Positions 7,485-47,414 of a stretch of 64,000 bases of DNA are shown here, piece after piece. Source of the DNA: Sulfitobacter indolifex. Lineage in GTDB: Bacteria > Pseudomonadota > Alphaproteobacteria > Rhodobacterales > Rhodobacteraceae. The notes under the pieces were generated by a model that searched no databases, was not told where the DNA came from, and was given only the letters and a program-made list of their open reading frames with translations. Within the stretch, counting starts at the first letter, position 1. Each line of letters opens with the position of its first letter. The position numbers and the translations under genes are program-made. The stretch is from positions 1,054,001-1,118,000 of the forward strand of contig NZ_CP084951.1 of NCBI RefSeq assembly GCF_022788655.1, given 5' to 3'.

Positions 7485-7513
7485 TTGACCTGTAGCGTCA
7501 CGCGGCGTACTTC
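7485..7513 (+). promoter_or_regulatory. Possible promoter for the riboswitch-metZ transcript
   Basis: TTGACC at 7485-7490 is a near-consensus -35 element. Seventeen bases later TACTTC at 7508-7513 is a weak -10. A start a few bases further on would put the 5' end of the RNA just before the SAM-II aptamer. This is the only plausible promoter seen in the gap, but the -10 is poor. Confidence 0.4.
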
Positions 7514-7516
7514 GAG

Positions 7517-7573
7517 CCGCGTGGCGATTTGTTACCGGATTGTGGGCCACGTTAAACATGCCGCTAAAAGGTC
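7517..7573 (+). promoter_or_regulatory. SAM-II riboswitch
   Basis: The core of the SAM-II class is visible. P1 is CGTGGC (7520-7525) pairing with GCCACG (7546-7551). The 5' strand runs straight into GATTTG, the conserved first-loop sequence. The 3' strand is followed by TTAAACATGCCGCTAAAAGG, matching the conserved tail GUUAAA-N-GCUAAAAGG. Bases TTACC in the loop can pair with AAGGT after the A-rich segment to make the class pseudoknot. SAM-II aptamers sit before methionine genes in alphaproteobacteria, and metZ follows here. An intrinsic terminator lies a few bases downstream. Confidence 0.88.
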
Positions 7574-7580
7574 AGGATGA

Positions 7581-7618
7581 AAGACCCCCTTTCGCTTGGC
7601 CGCGTCTGGGGTTTTTTT
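7581..7618 (+). terminator. Intrinsic terminator between SAM-II aptamer and metZ
   Basis: AGACCCC (about 7582-7588) can pair with GGGGTTT around 7608-7614, with the loop in between, and a seven-T run ends at 7618. It lies immediately after the SAM-II aptamer and 35 bp before the metZ start, so it could be the transcriptional expression platform. The pairing includes a G-U, and the loop is long. Confidence 0.6.
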
Positions 7619-42832: not shown

Positions 42833-45250
42833 ATGAGTGATTTTGACGAAATGGATGCCTTTGAAGGCGCATCATTGTCCGCCCGCGCCATGGCCGCGCG
42901 CCCGCAGCCTTATCTGGAGGGGTTGAACCCCGCCCAGCGTGCCGCGGTTGAGACGATGGACGGACCGGTGCTGATGCTTGCAGGGGCAGGCACCGGCAAG
43001 ACGCGGGCACTTACGGCGCGAATCGTGCATCTGCTCAACACCGGGCGGGCGCGGCCGAATGAGGTTTTGGCGGTCACTTTCACCAACAAAGCCGCGCGGG
43101 AGATGAAAAACCGTGTGGGTCAGATGCTGGGCCAGCAGGTGGAGGGGATGCCATGGCTTGGCACTTTCCATGCGATCTGCGTCAAACTGCTCCGGCGCCA
43201 TGCGGAATTGGTGGGGCTTAAGAGTAATTTTACCATTCTAGACACAGATGATCAGTTGCGACTGCTGAAACAATTGGTGGCGGCTGAGGGGATAGATGAC
43301 AAACGCTGGCCGGCGCGGATGTTGGCAGGGCTTATTGATGGCTGGAAGAATAGGGCGCTGACGCCCGACAAGGTGCCAACGGCGGATGCTGGGGCTTATA
43401 ACCACCGTGGACCCGAGATTTACGCGCAATATCAACGCCGTTTGATTGAGTTGAACGCGACCGACTTTGGCGATCTGCTGCTGCATATGGTAACGATTTT
43501 TCAGGCGCATCCGGATGTTCTGGCGCAGTATCAGCGCTGGTTTAAGTACATTCTGGTGGACGAATATCAAGATACCAACGTCGCCCAATACCTGTGGTTG
43601 CGGCTTTTGGCGCAGGGGCATAAGAACATTTGCTGCGTCGGCGATGACGACCAGTCGATTTACGGTTGGCGCGGGGCCGAAGTGGGCAATATCCTCCGGT
43701 TCGAAACGGATTTCCCCGGTGCACATGTGGTCAAGTTGGAGCAGAATTACCGCTCGACCCCGCATATTTTGGCGGCTGCCTCGGGCGTGATCGCCGGAAA
43801 TGAAGGGCGCTTGGGTAAGACGCTATGGACCGAAGAGACTGAGGGCGAAAAGGTCCGCCTTATCGGCCATTGGGATGGCGAGGAAGAGGCGCGCTGGATC
43901 GGGGATGAGATCGAATCTGCACAGCGCGGCACGCGGGGGCTCGATCCATTCTCACTCGACGATATGGCGATACTGGTCCGGGCGAGCCATCAGATGCGGG
44001 CGTTTGAAGATCGTTTTTTAACCATTGGGCTGCCTTATAAGGTGATCGGCGGCCCGCGATTCTATGAGCGGTTGGAAATTCGCGATGCCATGGCCTATTT
44101 CCGCGTCGTCACCAGCCCTGACGATGATTTGGCGTTTGAGCGCATCGTAAACACACCGAAGCGTGGTCTTGGCGACAAGGCCCAGCAAAAAATCCAGCGC
44201 ACCGCGCGCGATCATGGGGTGAACCTTGTCGAAGGGGCGCGAATCCTTTTGGCGCATGACGGGATCGGTGGCAAAGGAGGGGCCCAGTTGCGGCTGCTGG
44301 TCGAAGGAATTGACCGCTGGTCATCGATGTTGCATGGCCCTCGGATCGAGATCAGCGAAGATGACAGCGTGCTTGATGATGGCGCGGTGCCGCTGCGGGT
44401 CGATTACGGGCCACCCGAAGTTTCTCATGTCGAACTGGCCGAAATGATTCTCGACGAAAGCGGCTATACTGGCATGTGGCAAAACGACAAAACGCCCGAA
44501 GCGCCGGGACGGTTGGAGAATCTCAAGGAACTGGTGAAGGCATTAGAGGGGTTCGAGAATTTGCAGGGTTTCCTCGAACACGTCAGCTTGATCATGGACA
44601 ACGAGCAGGAAGGCGACGGCGAGAAGGTGTCGATCATGACCCTTCACGCGGCCAAAGGGCTTGAATTTCCAATGGTGTTTTTGCCAGGCTGGGAAGATGG
44701 GCTTTTCCCCTCGCAGCGGTCGATGGACGAAAGTGGGATCAAGGGGCTCGAGGAGGAACGGCGGCTTGCTTATGTGGGAATTACCCGGGCCGAGCAAATC
44801 TGCACGATCTCTTTTGCCGCGAACCGCCGCGTCTTTGGACAGTGGCAGAATGCGATGCCATCGCGGTTTATCGATGAGCTGCCCGAGGAGCATGTTGAGG
44901 TGTTAACCCCCCCAGGACTTTACGGTGGGGGCTTTGGCGCGGCGATGCCGCAGTCTGAGCTGCATGACCGCGCGGCCAATGCGAATGTCTATAACTCGCC
45001 GGGGTGGAAACGATTGCAATCGCGCAGTGGGGCGCGGGGCACCAGTCAGCCCCGAGAAAGCCGCAATGTCACGATCGACATGCAGGCGGTCGCCGCTTTT
45101 GAGATGGGTGAACGCGTTTTTCACGATAAATTCGGCTACGGCGAAGTGATCGGCATCGAAGGCGATAAAATGGAAGTCGCTTTTGAGAAGGCCGGGACCA
45201 AGAAGGTCGTCTCGCGGTTTTTGACCGGTGGGCAAGACGTGCCATTCTAA
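42833..45250 (+). CDS. uvrD: ATP-dependent DNA helicase UvrD/PcrA
   Basis: An 805-aa superfamily 1A helicase. Motifs in order: LNPAQRAAVE (Q motif), Walker A AGAGTGKTRAL near residue 51, TFTNKAAREM, Walker B DEYQDTN near 242, GDDDQSIYGWRGA, LEQNYRS, VSIMTLHAAKGLEF near 600, and AYVGITRAE. A C-terminal Tudor-like tail is present (VFHDKFGYGEVIGIEGDKMEV). It unwinds DNA in repair and clears RecA filaments. SOS control is predicted from the box at 42778-42792. Confidence 0.95.
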   Translation: MSDFDEMDAFEGASLSARAMAARPQPYLEGLNPAQRAAVETMDGPVLMLAGAGTGKTRALTARIVHLLNTGRARPNEVLAVTFTNKAAREMKNRVGQMLGQQVEGMPWLGTFHAICVKLLRRHAELVGLKSNFTILDTDDQLRLLKQLVAAEGIDDKRWPARMLAGLIDGWKNRALTPDKVPTADAGAYNHRGPEIYAQYQRRLIELNATDFGDLLLHMVTIFQAHPDVLAQYQRWFKYILVDEYQDTNVAQYLWLRLLAQGHKNICCVGDDDQSIYGWRGAEVGNILRFETDFPGAHVVKLEQNYRSTPHILAAASGVIAGNEGRLGKTLWTEETEGEKVRLIGHWDGEEEARWIGDEIESAQRGTRGLDPFSLDDMAILVRASHQMRAFEDRFLTIGLPYKVIGGPRFYERLEIRDAMAYFRVVTSPDDDLAFERIVNTPKRGLGDKAQQKIQRTARDHGVNLVEGARILLAHDGIGGKGGAQLRLLVEGIDRWSSMLHGPRIEISEDDSVLDDGAVPLRVDYGPPEVSHVELAEMILDESGYTGMWQNDKTPEAPGRLENLKELVKALEGFENLQGFLEHVSLIMDNEQEGDGEKVSIMTLHAAKGLEFPMVFLPGWEDGLFPSQRSMDESGIKGLEEERRLAYVGITRAEQICTISFAANRRVFGQWQNAMPSRFIDELPEEHVEVLTPPGLYGGGFGAAMPQSELHDRAANANVYNSPGWKRLQSRSGARGTSQPRESRNVTIDMQAVAAFEMGERVFHDKFGYGEVIGIEGDKMEVAFEKAGTKKVVSRFLTGGQDVPF

Positions 45251-45351: not shown

Positions 45352-45392
45352 CAAACAAAAACGACGGCACCTTGGGAGGAAGGTGCCGCCGT
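45352..45392 (-). terminator. Intrinsic terminator of the DUF1127-sRNA transcript (fourth hairpin)
   Basis: Perfect 9-bp stem CGGCACCTT / AAGGTGCCG (45365-45373 with 45380-45388). In the minus direction the loop reads CCTCCC and the stem is followed by a T-rich run (TCGTTTTTGTTTG). It closes the downstream array. Confidence 0.9.
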
Positions 45393-45403
45393 TTCTATGT
45401 CGG

Positions 45404-45518
45404 CCCGAAGCGTCGAGGGAGGGTCGGCTTCGGGTCTCCTTGCGGGGTCCGCCTCATCAGGGAGGAGGAAAGTGACGCGCACCCCGGCTTTCAGACGGCA
45501 GAACAGGGAGGGGTTCTG
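45404..45518 (-). ncRNA. CcsR/cuckoo-like small RNA array, downstream of DUF1127
   Basis: Three stem-loops read on the minus strand after the DUF1127 stop, before the terminator hairpin. The first (45499-45518) has stem CAGAAC/GTTCTG and loop CCCTCCCT. The second (45443-45486) has outer stem CGGGGT/ACCCCG and loop containing CCTCCTCCC. The third (45404-45434) has an 8-bp stem CCCGAAGC/GCTTCGGG and loop with CCCTCCC. With the terminator loop (CCTCCC) all four loops show C-rich sequences complementary to ribosome-binding sites. The position after a DUF1127 gene matches CcsR1-4 of R. sphaeroides, where a DUF1127 protein (CcaF1) and the RNAs are co-transcribed and processed. Confidence 0.75.
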
Positions 45519-45539
45519 ACGTCCGATCTCAATATCGGC

Positions 45540-45752
45540 TTAGCCGCGGGAGGATTCCCATGCGACGCGGCGCAGTTCGGAACGGCTCAGACCAAGGTCA
45601 GCCAGTTCGCGGTTGCTCAACGCGCTCAGACCGTCAAAAGTTTCACGGTACAGACGGTGCTGTTTGTAGCGGGTGGCAAGTGCTTCGAGTGTTCCGCCAA
45701 CGCGGGCGAAGACGGAAGTTGTGTTTGCGGTGGTTGTGTTCATGTAAGCCAT
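45540..45752 (-). CDS. DUF1127 protein, CcaF1-like
   Basis: A 70-aa basic protein ending in the typical DUF1127 helix pair (YRETFDGLSALSNRELADLGLSRSELRRVAWE). The size equals that of R. sphaeroides CcaF1 (about 71 aa), reported to bind RNA and affect small RNA maturation. The start at 45752 follows AGAGGCG. Small RNA arrays lie on both sides, and its upstream control block resembles the one before the other array. A role in processing those RNAs is inferred from this arrangement. Confidence 0.85.
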   Translation of the reverse strand: MAYMNTTTANTTSVFARVGGTLEALATRYKQHRLYRETFDGLSALSNRELADLGLSRSELRRVAWESSRG

Positions 45753-45809
45753 TTCGGCGCCTCTTTTTTCATCTGTGGATTATCTCGTTGCCTGCTATTT
45801 ACGCTCTTT

Positions 45810-45853
45810 CTGCATTTGCACAACGGGCATAAAGGCAATGCCGCTATGCAGAA
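45810..45853 (-). promoter_or_regulatory. Control block of the DUF1127 gene
   Basis: On the minus strand the block reads TTCTGC-ATA-GCGGCA-TTGC (dyad 45853-45839, imperfect) then, after 16 bp, TTGTGCA-AA-TGCAG (45823-45810) and AGCGTAAATAG. The same elements with the same spacing occur at 46226-46183 before the upstream array. A promoter with TTGTGC as -35 and TAAATA as -10 is possible. Confidence 0.6.
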
Positions 45854-45962
45854 ATCGCATAGGTGAAGAAAGCTGTAAGTGATTGATGAGCAAGGGATTT
45901 AGTCGCGCTACGAAGTGACGCACCGTCATAAAACTGTCATTTTGGGGTGGGGAGGGAAAGGA

Positions 45963-46127
45963 GCGGCGACATCTGGGAGGAGGTAGATGTCGCCGCCAAT
46001 TGCAGACACATCCGGGAGGAGGATGGATACGTCTGGTCTTTCCGAACTCAGATACATCCGGGAGGAGGATGGATGCTCTGGGTCTTGTCAAAATCAGACA
46101 CATTCGGGAGGAGGATGAATGTGTCTG
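45963..46127 (-). ncRNA. CcsR/cuckoo-like small RNA array, upstream of DUF1127
   Basis: Four stem-loops on the minus strand: 46095-46127 (11-bp stem, perfect), 46049-46080 (imperfect), 46003-46035 (nearly perfect) and 45963-45996 (12-bp perfect stem). The first three start every 46 nt, and the last is 40 nt further on. Each loop reads CCTCCTCCC in the minus direction. The spacers share GGAAAGACC before the stems. This looks like tandem duplication of one unit. The last hairpin is GC-rich and followed by TCCTTTCC, so it may end the transcript. The orientation is chosen from the loops, the promoter block and the neighbouring DUF1127 gene. Confidence 0.75.
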
Positions 46128-46182
46128 GTCTTTCCGAAGGCTGGGCATTGCCCTGCCTATGAACTCAAGTTAGCGCTAATTG

Positions 46183-46226
46183 CTGCAAGTGCACAATATT
46201 TGTTTTTGCAATGCTGCTATGCAGCA
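46183..46226 (-). promoter_or_regulatory. Control block of the upstream small RNA array
   Basis: Perfect dyad TGCTGC-N3-GCAGCA (46212-46226) followed on the minus strand by TTGC. After the same 16-bp gap as in the DUF1127 block come TTGTGCA-CT-TGCAG (46196-46183) and AGCGCTAAC. This copy sits about 60 bp before the first hairpin. It suggests that the array has its own promoter, and that it and the DUF1127 gene respond to one regulator. Confidence 0.65.
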
Positions 46227-46349
46227 AAAACATGGGATCCTTGCGCAATCCTTAGGCGTTGCGCCTGATCCTTGTGCGAAACGGGCCGTCCCCTTGCGCT
46301 TGGCGCAGAACCTGCCATTTCAGGAGGCCTAATAGAGGAGAATTTGCGC

Positions 46350-47414
46350 ATGTCTGTGACCAAAGCAGAAGTCGAAGCGGCGCTGGAGCGGGTGCAGCTG
46401 CCCGACGGAAAAAGCCTGTTGTCCCATGATCTGGTTCGCGCATTGGTGATTGACGGCGAAAAGGTGCGATTCGTGATTGAGGCACCCAACGCTGATGTGG
46501 CCCGCCAGATGGCACCGCTGCGAGACGCAGCTGAGCAGGTGGTCCGCGATCTACCGGGGGTTGGCGATGTTTCCGTGGCCCTTACCGCCCATGGCCCTGC
46601 GCCCAAGGCGCCCAGTCTTAAAGTCGGCGGCCACCCAAAGCCGCAAGAGGGGCCGATGAAGCCCAGTGGTGTAAAGCGCATCCTGGCAATTGGCTCAGGC
46701 AAGGGTGGGGTGGGTAAATCCACGGTCAGCTCTAACCTCGCCGTGGCGCTGGCGCGCGCAGGTCGCAAGGTCGGGCTGTTGGACGCTGATATCTATGGTC
46801 CCAGCCAGCCGCGCATGATGGGGATCAACAAACGCCCCGCCAGCCCGGACGGCAAGACGATCATCCCCCTTCAAGCGCATGGCGTCACGATGATGTCGAT
46901 TGGCTTTATGTTAGAAGAGGGCAAGGCCGTGGTCTGGCGTGGCCCAATGCTGATGGGCGCGTTGCAGCAGATGCTGGGGCAGGTAGAGTGGGGCGAGCTT
47001 GATGTGCTGCTCGTTGATCTGCCGCCGGGCACGGGGGATGTGCAGTTGACGCTTTGCACCAAATCCGAATTGTCCGGCGCTATTGTCGTCAGCACACCGC
47101 AAGATGTGGCGCTGATCGATGCACGCAAGGCGCTGGATATGTTCGCCACCTTAAAAACCCCCGTGCTGGGTCTGATCGAGAATATGTCGATGTTCGTCTG
47201 CCCTGATTGCGGATCGCAGCATGAGATATTCGGCCATGGGGGCGTGGCGGCAGAGGCCGATAAGATGGGTGTGCCGCTGCTGGGCAGCCTGCCGATTGAT
47301 CTGGAGACCCGTCTTGCGGGCGACAATGGCACACCGATTGCCGCAGGCGACGGCGCCATGGCCGACGCCTATGCCCGCATCGCACGCGGGTTGATCGACG
47401 GCGGCATGGCCTGA
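46350..47414 (+). CDS. Mrp/ApbC-family iron-sulfur carrier ATPase
   Basis: A 354-aa protein. The N-terminal about 80 residues form a MIP18/DUF59-like domain (VEAALERVQLPDGKSLLS). A ParA-like P-loop follows (GSGKGGVGKSTVSSNLAVALA, residues about 116-136), with LLDADIYGPSQPRMMG, DLPPGTGDVQLTL and the two Fe-S cysteines CPDC near 284. It carries and delivers [4Fe-4S] clusters in the cytoplasm. The start at 46350 follows AGAGGAG; the frame extends further upstream without conserved sequence. Confidence 0.9.
   Translation: MSVTKAEVEAALERVQLPDGKSLLSHDLVRALVIDGEKVRFVIEAPNADVARQMAPLRDAAEQVVRDLPGVGDVSVALTAHGPAPKAPSLKVGGHPKPQEGPMKPSGVKRILAIGSGKGGVGKSTVSSNLAVALARAGRKVGLLDADIYGPSQPRMMGINKRPASPDGKTIIPLQAHGVTMMSIGFMLEEGKAVVWRGPMLMGALQQMLGQVEWGELDVLLVDLPPGTGDVQLTLCTKSELSGAIVVSTPQDVALIDARKALDMFATLKTPVLGLIENMSMFVCPDCGSQHEIFGHGGVAAEADKMGVPLLGSLPIDLETRLAGDNGTPIAAGDGAMADAYARIARGLIDGGMA

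Follow-up and report, generated by a model that had tools for sequence, protein, structure and literature searches.

In Rhodobacter sphaeroides, four CcsR RNAs are encoded downstream of ccaF1 and share one RpoHI/RpoHII promoter with it (PMC10253847). CcsR1 to CcsR4 are cut from the ccaF1 3′ untranslated region (UTR) (PMC8625941), and the CcaF1 protein binds or processes them (PMC10253847, PMC8307010, PMC8625941). RNAs of the cuckoo family have been described as 2 to 4 adjacent hairpins with variable stems and a conserved loop motif (PMC4504443, PMC3927594). In Sinorhizobium meliloti, the small RNA (sRNA) NfeR1 (ar14) is free-standing, 123 nt long, and made up of three hairpins that each carry CCUCCUCCC; it has a sigma70 core promoter, upstream of which LsrB activates it from a TGCA-N6-GCAT box (PMC10746234). 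LsrB is the rhizobial counterpart of VtlR, and NfeR1 silences ntrBC (PMC10746234). Direct activation targets of VtlR in Agrobacterium tumefaciens include abcR1 and a small-protein gene (PMC7486931), and one LysR protein has been reported to act over sRNAs and over DUF1127 or small-protein genes in Brucella and Agrobacterium (PMC12595884, PMC7486931).

We analyzed a locus of Sulfitobacter indolifex that combines features of these systems. It lies in a stretch of 64,000 nt from contig NZ_CP084951.1, referred to here as the window. From 45355 to 46225, the order along the minus strand is operator 1, four CCUCCUCCC hairpins, operator 2, a DUF1127 gene, and four more hairpins. All eight stem-loops recorded in a first-pass annotation, four on either side of a 70-aa DUF1127 gene, were recovered, and comparison with relatives upheld its reading of the locus as CcsR/CcaF1 type (cuckoo, CIN1) with an extra array and a control block of its own before the gene. 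The features are as follows.

46344-47414, plus strand: mrp/apbC (NUBPL-type P-loop NTPase), divergent from the array (ORF and domain match)
46209-46224 and 46181-46196, minus strand: operator 1 of the upstream unit, CTGCATAGCAGCATTG and TTGTGCACTTGCAGCA separated by 12 nt (exact family-element match)
46003-46138, minus strand: region of upstream hairpins 1 to 3, 46-nt repeats (fold and repeat comparison)
46095-46127, minus strand: upstream hairpin 1, CCUCCUCCC loop (fold)
46047-46082, minus strand: upstream hairpin 2, CCUCCUCCC loop (fold)
46003-46035, minus strand: upstream hairpin 3, CCUCCUCCC loop (fold)
45962-45997, minus strand: upstream hairpin 4, CCUCCUCCC loop, last of the unit (fold)
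45955-46039, minus strand: CcsR-type two-hairpin unit (hairpins 3 and 4), common to 19 clade sequences (Rfam CcsR1, covariation)
45808-45851, minus strand: operator 2, before ccaF1, CTGCATAGCGGCATTG (45836-45851) and TTGTGCAAATGCAGAA (45808-45823; one mismatch) (family-element match)
45540-45752, minus strand: ccaF1-type DUF1127 gene, 70 aa (ORF; PF06568, E 2e-11)
45359-45526, minus strand: downstream array, hairpins 5 to 8 (fold, covariation)
45491-45526, minus strand: downstream hairpin 5 (fold)
45442-45488, minus strand: downstream hairpin 6, loose stem, the only downstream loop with full CCUCCUCCC (fold)
45404-45434, minus strand: downstream hairpin 7 (fold)
45359-45394, minus strand: downstream hairpin 8, with T-run, likely operon terminator (fold)
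42833-45250, plus strand: uvrD-type helicase, convergent with the locus (ORF and domain match)

Since flanking mrp and uvrD genes are common to many relatives, the ccaF1 locus represents one orthologous place. Elsewhere in the window, a SAM_alpha riboswitch (RF00521, 59 bits) was located at 7511-7587 on the plus strand.

As in CIN1 of R. sphaeroides, a DUF1127 gene of ∼70 aa is followed by CcsR-type multihairpin RNAs and a terminal hairpin; unlike CIN1, the locus has a further unit upstream that lacks an ORF and bears an operator of its own, and most of its downstream loops are shortened. Like NfeR1, the upstream unit carries several CCUCCUCCC hairpins with a box upstream, and the ar14 model matches it below the gathering score. 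In contrast to NfeR1, it comprises 2 to 4 hairpins beside ccaF1, its box is spaced TGCA-N5-GCAT, and it has no clear core promoter. An ORF-less, operator-bearing copy before its own DUF1127 gene also sets the locus apart from the cuckoo family, as far as that family can be judged from citing descriptions. The likeness to the VtlR/LsrB regulon, with its AbcR sRNAs and small DUF1127 genes, lies in the box before both sRNA and DUF1127 gene, which here is predicted from sequence. By analogy, the upstream unit would work most like NfeR1, and it sits most like CcsR. Among the matches listed in a literature search, none described an upstream unit without an ORF, CcsR in Sulfitobacter, or an effect of LsrB on CcsR, and no text in the literature searched contained both LsrB and CcsR as whole words; an earlier description is possible.

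The motif CCTCCTCCC occurred five times in the window, each time at this locus and on the minus strand (0.5 expected; none of 100 shuffles reached 5). Genome-wide, the bare loop motif was not enriched (18 matches versus 24 for the reversed pattern), and the signal is the clustering of the motif in hairpins rather than its bare count. The annotation had described all eight loops as C-rich and anti-Shine-Dalgarno: five carry the full CCTCCTCCC, but three downstream loops are shorter and read CCCTCCC or CCTCCC.

All four upstream loops in the window are full CCUCCUCCC. Hairpins 1 to 3 form a 46-nt repeat, in which two copies share 80% and 91% identity with the reference copy. With a folding energy of −72.6 kcal/mol, the upstream 196 nt are more stable than any of 200 shuffles (z −8.9). 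In the pair formed by hairpins 3 and 4, which is shared by 19 clade sequences (17 distinct), 96.1% of cells were paired and 14 of 23 pairs had changed on both sides. None of 500 shuffles scored as high, and slid versions were 30 to 52% paired. While the stems vary, CCTCCTCCC is kept in the first hairpin of all 19 sequences and in the second of 18. The upstream array thereby has the 2 to 4 adjacent hairpins, CCUCCUCCC loops, and variable stems of a cuckoo RNA. Four full upstream motifs were present in the window, S. dubius, S. delicatus, and S. maritimus, and two in the other 15 clade sequences, except for one sequence (L057) with a single motif.

In the search with the CcsR covariance model that the first-pass annotation had proposed, Rfam CcsR1 (RF02791) matched hairpins 3 and 4 with 45.5 bits (45958-46040; E 1e-9 in a 1.2-kb search), but this is below its gathering score of 65.3. 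Likewise, ar14 (RF02344) reached 40.4, 34.5, and 33.1 bits in the window against a gathering score of 58.8, the first and last of these matches lying on the upstream array. At gathering scores, Rfam found neither array in the window and no CcsR1 or ar14 match in 20 related loci.

Hairpin 4 is followed by 5 to 8 T in 13 of the 19 clade sequences and by 3 T in the window; a run of at least five is absent from the window and from 5 of its 18 relatives. Judged by hairpin and T-run, the upstream unit looks terminated in most of the clade. A terminator-like hairpin before ccaF1 might also act in cis, in that the main role of the hairpins would be to tune read-through toward ccaF1, for instance in response to ribosome availability, and not to act in trans; leader attenuation controls a DUF1127 gene of Sinorhizobium meliloti (PMC12218461). 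We consider such an attenuator very improbable, because all 19 first hairpins and 18 of the 19 second ones retain CCUCCUCCC despite variable stems, because the homologous CcsR units downstream are in no position to attenuate ccaF1, and because the distance from array to gene varies across the clade alignment.

The downstream 191 nt fold at −86.6 kcal/mol (z −6.2; 0 of 200 shuffles as low). Covariation was counted in the two helices (19 pairs) that align well, excluding the interior of hairpin 5 as well as hairpins 6 and 7, where the alignment slips; 96.3% of cells were paired, and 12 pairs had changed on both sides. The first-pass annotation had named a lack of compensatory changes in relatives as the outcome that would overturn its reading; instead, both arrays covary in the helices counted, at 14 of 23 pairs upstream and 12 of 19 downstream. 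Measured against cuckoo RNAs, the downstream array has four hairpins, covariation in the two counted helices, and one full loop of four. Hairpin 8 with its T-run is likely the operon terminator; a terminator scan gave only a plus-strand match and missed this minus-strand hairpin, and the call rests on the folds. The CcsR-like hairpins of the downstream array directly follow a short DUF1127 gene, the usual layout of a CIN1 (ccaF1-CcsR) locus.

The annotation's description of this half as the canonical module was correct with respect to the CcsR-like hairpins behind ccaF1 but not to their loops, few of which are full anti-Shine-Dalgarno sequences in the Sulfitobacter clade. Within 700 bp downstream, full CCTCCTCCC motifs averaged 1.0 (range 0 to 2) in 17 named carriers of an upstream array, compared with 5.1 (median 5) in 63 other named loci; the rank test of these counts (p 2e-6) is not an independent one, because the clade represents one origin, and some contigs are short. 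Long downstream arrays were observed behind ccaF1 in three Mameliella loci (L099, L104, and L115) and in Pseudoponticoccus (L092), with 12 or 13 hairpins bearing the full or partial motif. Four CcsR RNAs, as in R. sphaeroides, would need fewer hairpins, and copy number varies widely across genera.

The family element underlying both operators, CTGCATNGCNGCATTG and TTGTGCANNNGCAGCA separated by N8-13, gave 68 matches in 66 of 150 family genomes, and the reversed pattern gave none in the genomes listed. Forty copies fell in genomes with a listed DUF1127 match, of which 39 were located directly ahead of such a gene and 37 at a distance of 53 to 157 bp; the other 28 were in genomes with no DUF1127 row among the matches listed and were left out of this placement count. 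The copies of this genome and its sister species lie 429 and 351 bp from DUF1127 because the array lies between. A fourth exact half-site in the genome (C1:687981) was put down to chance, as it lies between other genes and lacks a second half-site. A second CcsR-like locus was noticed at C1:886242-886810, where a DUF1127 gene is accompanied by another small ORF and, by eye, three C-rich hairpins, two of which carry CCTCCTCCC; a VtlR-like first half-site lies ahead of it.

In the window, the array operator has no mismatch and the ccaF1 operator has one. Of the 19 clade sequences, 16 have a mismatch-free array copy and 7 a mismatch-free ccaF1 copy; the latter carries one or two mismatches in 4 sequences (including the window) and at least five in 8. 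Even where this operator has decayed, a TTG...TA core is kept before ccaF1 (clade alignment, by eye). The TTG and TA positions were compared by eye with the description of RpoHI/RpoHII promoters (PMC3441632). The core promoter sequences of the two control blocks differ (by eye); a sigma70 promoter scan returned no match, and the array promoter has no clear −10 element.

These observations bear on two further readings. With 3 T after hairpin 4, the eroded T-run of the window subclade makes read-through into ccaF1 a real possibility, and the upstream hairpins might then be the 5′ leader of one long transcript that runs from the upstream operator through ccaF1 and the downstream array, and RNase E/CcaF1 processing would release them from it; ccaF1 would in that case have UTR-derived sRNAs on both sides, with no separate gene ahead of it. 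Such a leader would be consistent with the release of CcsR1 to CcsR4 from the ccaF1 3′ UTR in R. sphaeroides (PMC8625941), with the lack of at least five T in the window and 5 of 18 relatives, and with the 8 of 19 sequences in which ccaF1, its proximal operator having at least five mismatches, could depend on the upstream promoter. We nevertheless regard it as unlikely in view of the strong hairpin with 5 to 8 T in 13 of 19 sequences and of the TTG...TA core kept before ccaF1 despite operator decay (by eye). The other reading is that of the annotation, which had suggested two independently timed pulses of silencing RNA. Two operator-promoter blocks do exist, their core promoters differ by eye, and the ccaF1 operator has decayed in 8 of 19 sequences, so that separate control and differently timed output are conceivable. 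However, the two blocks of the window share one operator sequence (0 and 1 mismatches), which favors joint control: as copies of one operator, they make shared control by one LysR-type regulator likelier than independent timing. The proposal of separate pulses thus found no support, and we judge it improbable.

Our first guess for the regulator was PhaR, whose site we take to be CTGC-N3-GCAG, and this guess was dropped once the VtlR box had been seen. The first half-site matches the reverse complement of the VtlR box (PMC12595884) at 13 of 15 positions, the box of the VtlR/LsrB literature reading TGCATGGCTGCATTG and that at the locus TGCATAGCAGCATTG. A VtlR/LsrB box of this quality lies ahead of the putative array promoter, in an operator that is perfect in 16 of 19 sequences. 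The looser box GCAT-N3-TG-N3-T (PMC7486931) was unmatched at the locus, where TG reads AG or GG. If the −35 element is assigned to the TTG of the second half-site, the box would lie near −64 to −49; the LsrB box of Sinorhizobium meliloti abcR1 is located at −61 to −49 (PMC8844928).

An LsrB-type LysR protein is encoded in the genome at C1:1774527-1775384. It is 49% identical to a trxB-adjacent LsrB-type homologue (E 4e-89), the next-ranked LysR protein being 32% identical (E 4e-38), and 52 of its first 65 residues, a segment that holds the DNA-binding helices, are the same as in the homologue. By this ranking of the genome's LysR proteins, it is the LsrB/VtlR orthologue. A location beside trxB, as in Rhizobiales, did not apply: trxB here has an Lrp-like neighbor (by eye), and the 6 kb inspected there contain no LysR gene. 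The protein has one cysteine, at position 190. Since it lacks the C144-C273 redox pair of A. tumefaciens LsrB (PMC11975290), a redox switch of the A. tumefaciens type may be absent.

Outside the family, the exact box was found in 4 of the 14 genomes examined among 18 that bear an LsrB-type protein, never beside a listed DUF1127 gene. We further inspected the 38 regions preceding DUF1127 genes in other-family genomes (from 43 matches, tandem matches sharing a region). The box occurred within two mismatches in 8 and two control patterns in 0; GCAT-N3-TG-N3-T occurred in 6, compared with 1 for its reverse, and the full Brucella 15-mer within two mismatches in none of the 38. We predict control of both the upstream unit and ccaF1 by an LsrB/VtlR-type LysR protein, whose binding we infer from the box.

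To survey relatives, we took 80 named loci, the best 80 of at least 531 relatives. The closest was Sulfitobacter dubius, with a DUF1127 protein 94% identical. Upstream full-motif arrays were found in 17 of the 80, all labeled Sulfitobacter or Roseobacter; three of the other 63 offer less than 1.5 kb upstream. A family draw covered 110 loci (30 plus 80 fetched) from the top of a similarity ranking of 295 genomes, one genome too near a contig end (G263) and second matches per genome having been left out before the 80 were fetched. A full-motif hairpin was present within 700 bp downstream in 101 of these loci and upstream in five, two of which were this genome and its sister species (G053). Both count among the nine loci without a downstream full-motif hairpin because hairpin 6 is below the stem threshold. 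Three candidates for further upstream arrays (L175, L182, and L225) were rejected as tandem modules, since another small ORF, DUF1127-like by eye, precedes each array. One of them, L225 (genome G007, contig C6), has three such ORFs in tandem (by eye), with CCTCCTCCC hairpins behind at least two. Nor were two nonclade loci (L076 and L098) counted, each having only one upstream hairpin with a partial motif.

In an mrp tree of 64 fragments, the 19 carriers and the noncarrier S. sabulilitoris formed one branch (support 100/99). Within the sample, the ORF-less upstream unit is confined to this strongly supported Sulfitobacter branch, in which 19 of 20 rows carry it; two changes, such as a gain and a loss, would explain the pattern. 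A cobalamin riboswitch (L056:3909-4124) was observed behind ccaF1 in S. sabulilitoris, the only clade member without the unit.

The origin of the unit was addressed with a covariance model, R1, built from the upstream pair and run over the window and the 63 named nonclade loci. The 19 best-scoring of these 63 match R1 at the first unit behind ccaF1, 14 to 39 nt past the gene match; below them, some match best at later units (e.g., L081 and L097). The first downstream unit of S. sabulilitoris scored 75.9 bits. Within the clade, the first downstream unit gave an R1 match in 13 of 19 sequences, at 19 to 42 bits, and none in the window; upstream scores of 68 to 105 bits are circular, as the model was built from those sequences. 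A weak R1 match was also seen on another contig of the genome (C3:7003-7086; 25.6 bits, E 0.016). By sequence, the upstream array is a CcsR-unit homologue nearest to first downstream units. Three other genera carry tandem complete modules (L175, L182, and L225), which are a plausible intermediate for duplication. Together, the R1 matches at first units and the tandem modules suggest duplication of operator, ccaF1, and first unit, followed by loss of the copied ORF, of which no remnant was seen. The order of these events is a reconstruction.

We therefore favor, with reasonable though not high confidence, the view that the upstream array is an autonomous gene for a trans-acting sRNA of the CcsR1/NfeR1 kind, which arose by module duplication with loss of the ORF and answers to the LysR protein that also controls ccaF1. 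Its structure and covariation, the identity and conservation of its operator, its restriction to one clade within the sample, and its homology to first downstream units are seen in the sequence; its transcription, LsrB binding, origin by ORF loss, and anti-Shine-Dalgarno action are deduced from these features. A tandem duplication of operator, ccaF1, and first CcsR unit probably occurred at the base of the Sulfitobacter clade, and the duplicated ORF would then have been lost, leaving operator and hairpin unit. The LsrB-type protein would activate the upstream unit; ccaF1 and the downstream array would be activated as well in sequences with an intact operator 2. Transcripts would end at hairpin 4, which resembles an intrinsic terminator with T-run in most clade sequences. 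The CCUCCUCCC loops exposed by the released RNAs would pair with the Shine-Dalgarno regions of target mRNAs and block their translation, as reported for NfeR1; as in R. sphaeroides, CcaF1 may take part by binding or processing the RNAs.

For the cell, this would mean that the upstream sRNA can probably be made without the DUF1127 protein, from a control site of its own, and that the hairpin RNAs are probably able to block ribosome-binding sites. Since full anti-Shine-Dalgarno loops are now found mainly upstream in this clade, sRNA output would be partly uncoupled from the CcaF1 message. On a wider scale, it is possible, at somewhat under even chances in our estimation, that an sRNA released in other genera from the ccaF1 3′ UTR has become an independent gene in Sulfitobacter through module duplication and ORF loss, that an LsrB/VtlR-type regulator runs ccaF1-CcsR family-wide, and that the rhizobial LsrB-NfeR1/AbcR circuit and the rhodobacterial CcsR/CcaF1 stress system are one ancestral circuit, whose sRNA was at some point coupled to its RNA-binding protein and later uncoupled from it. 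The locus offers a natural case of a UTR-derived sRNA apparently separated from its RNA-binding protein partner, and this separation lets the need of CcsR RNAs for CcaF1 in maturation and action be tested. An LsrB/VtlR-type regulator, as proposed here for the ccaF1-CcsR loci of many Rhodobacterales, would join two lines of research.
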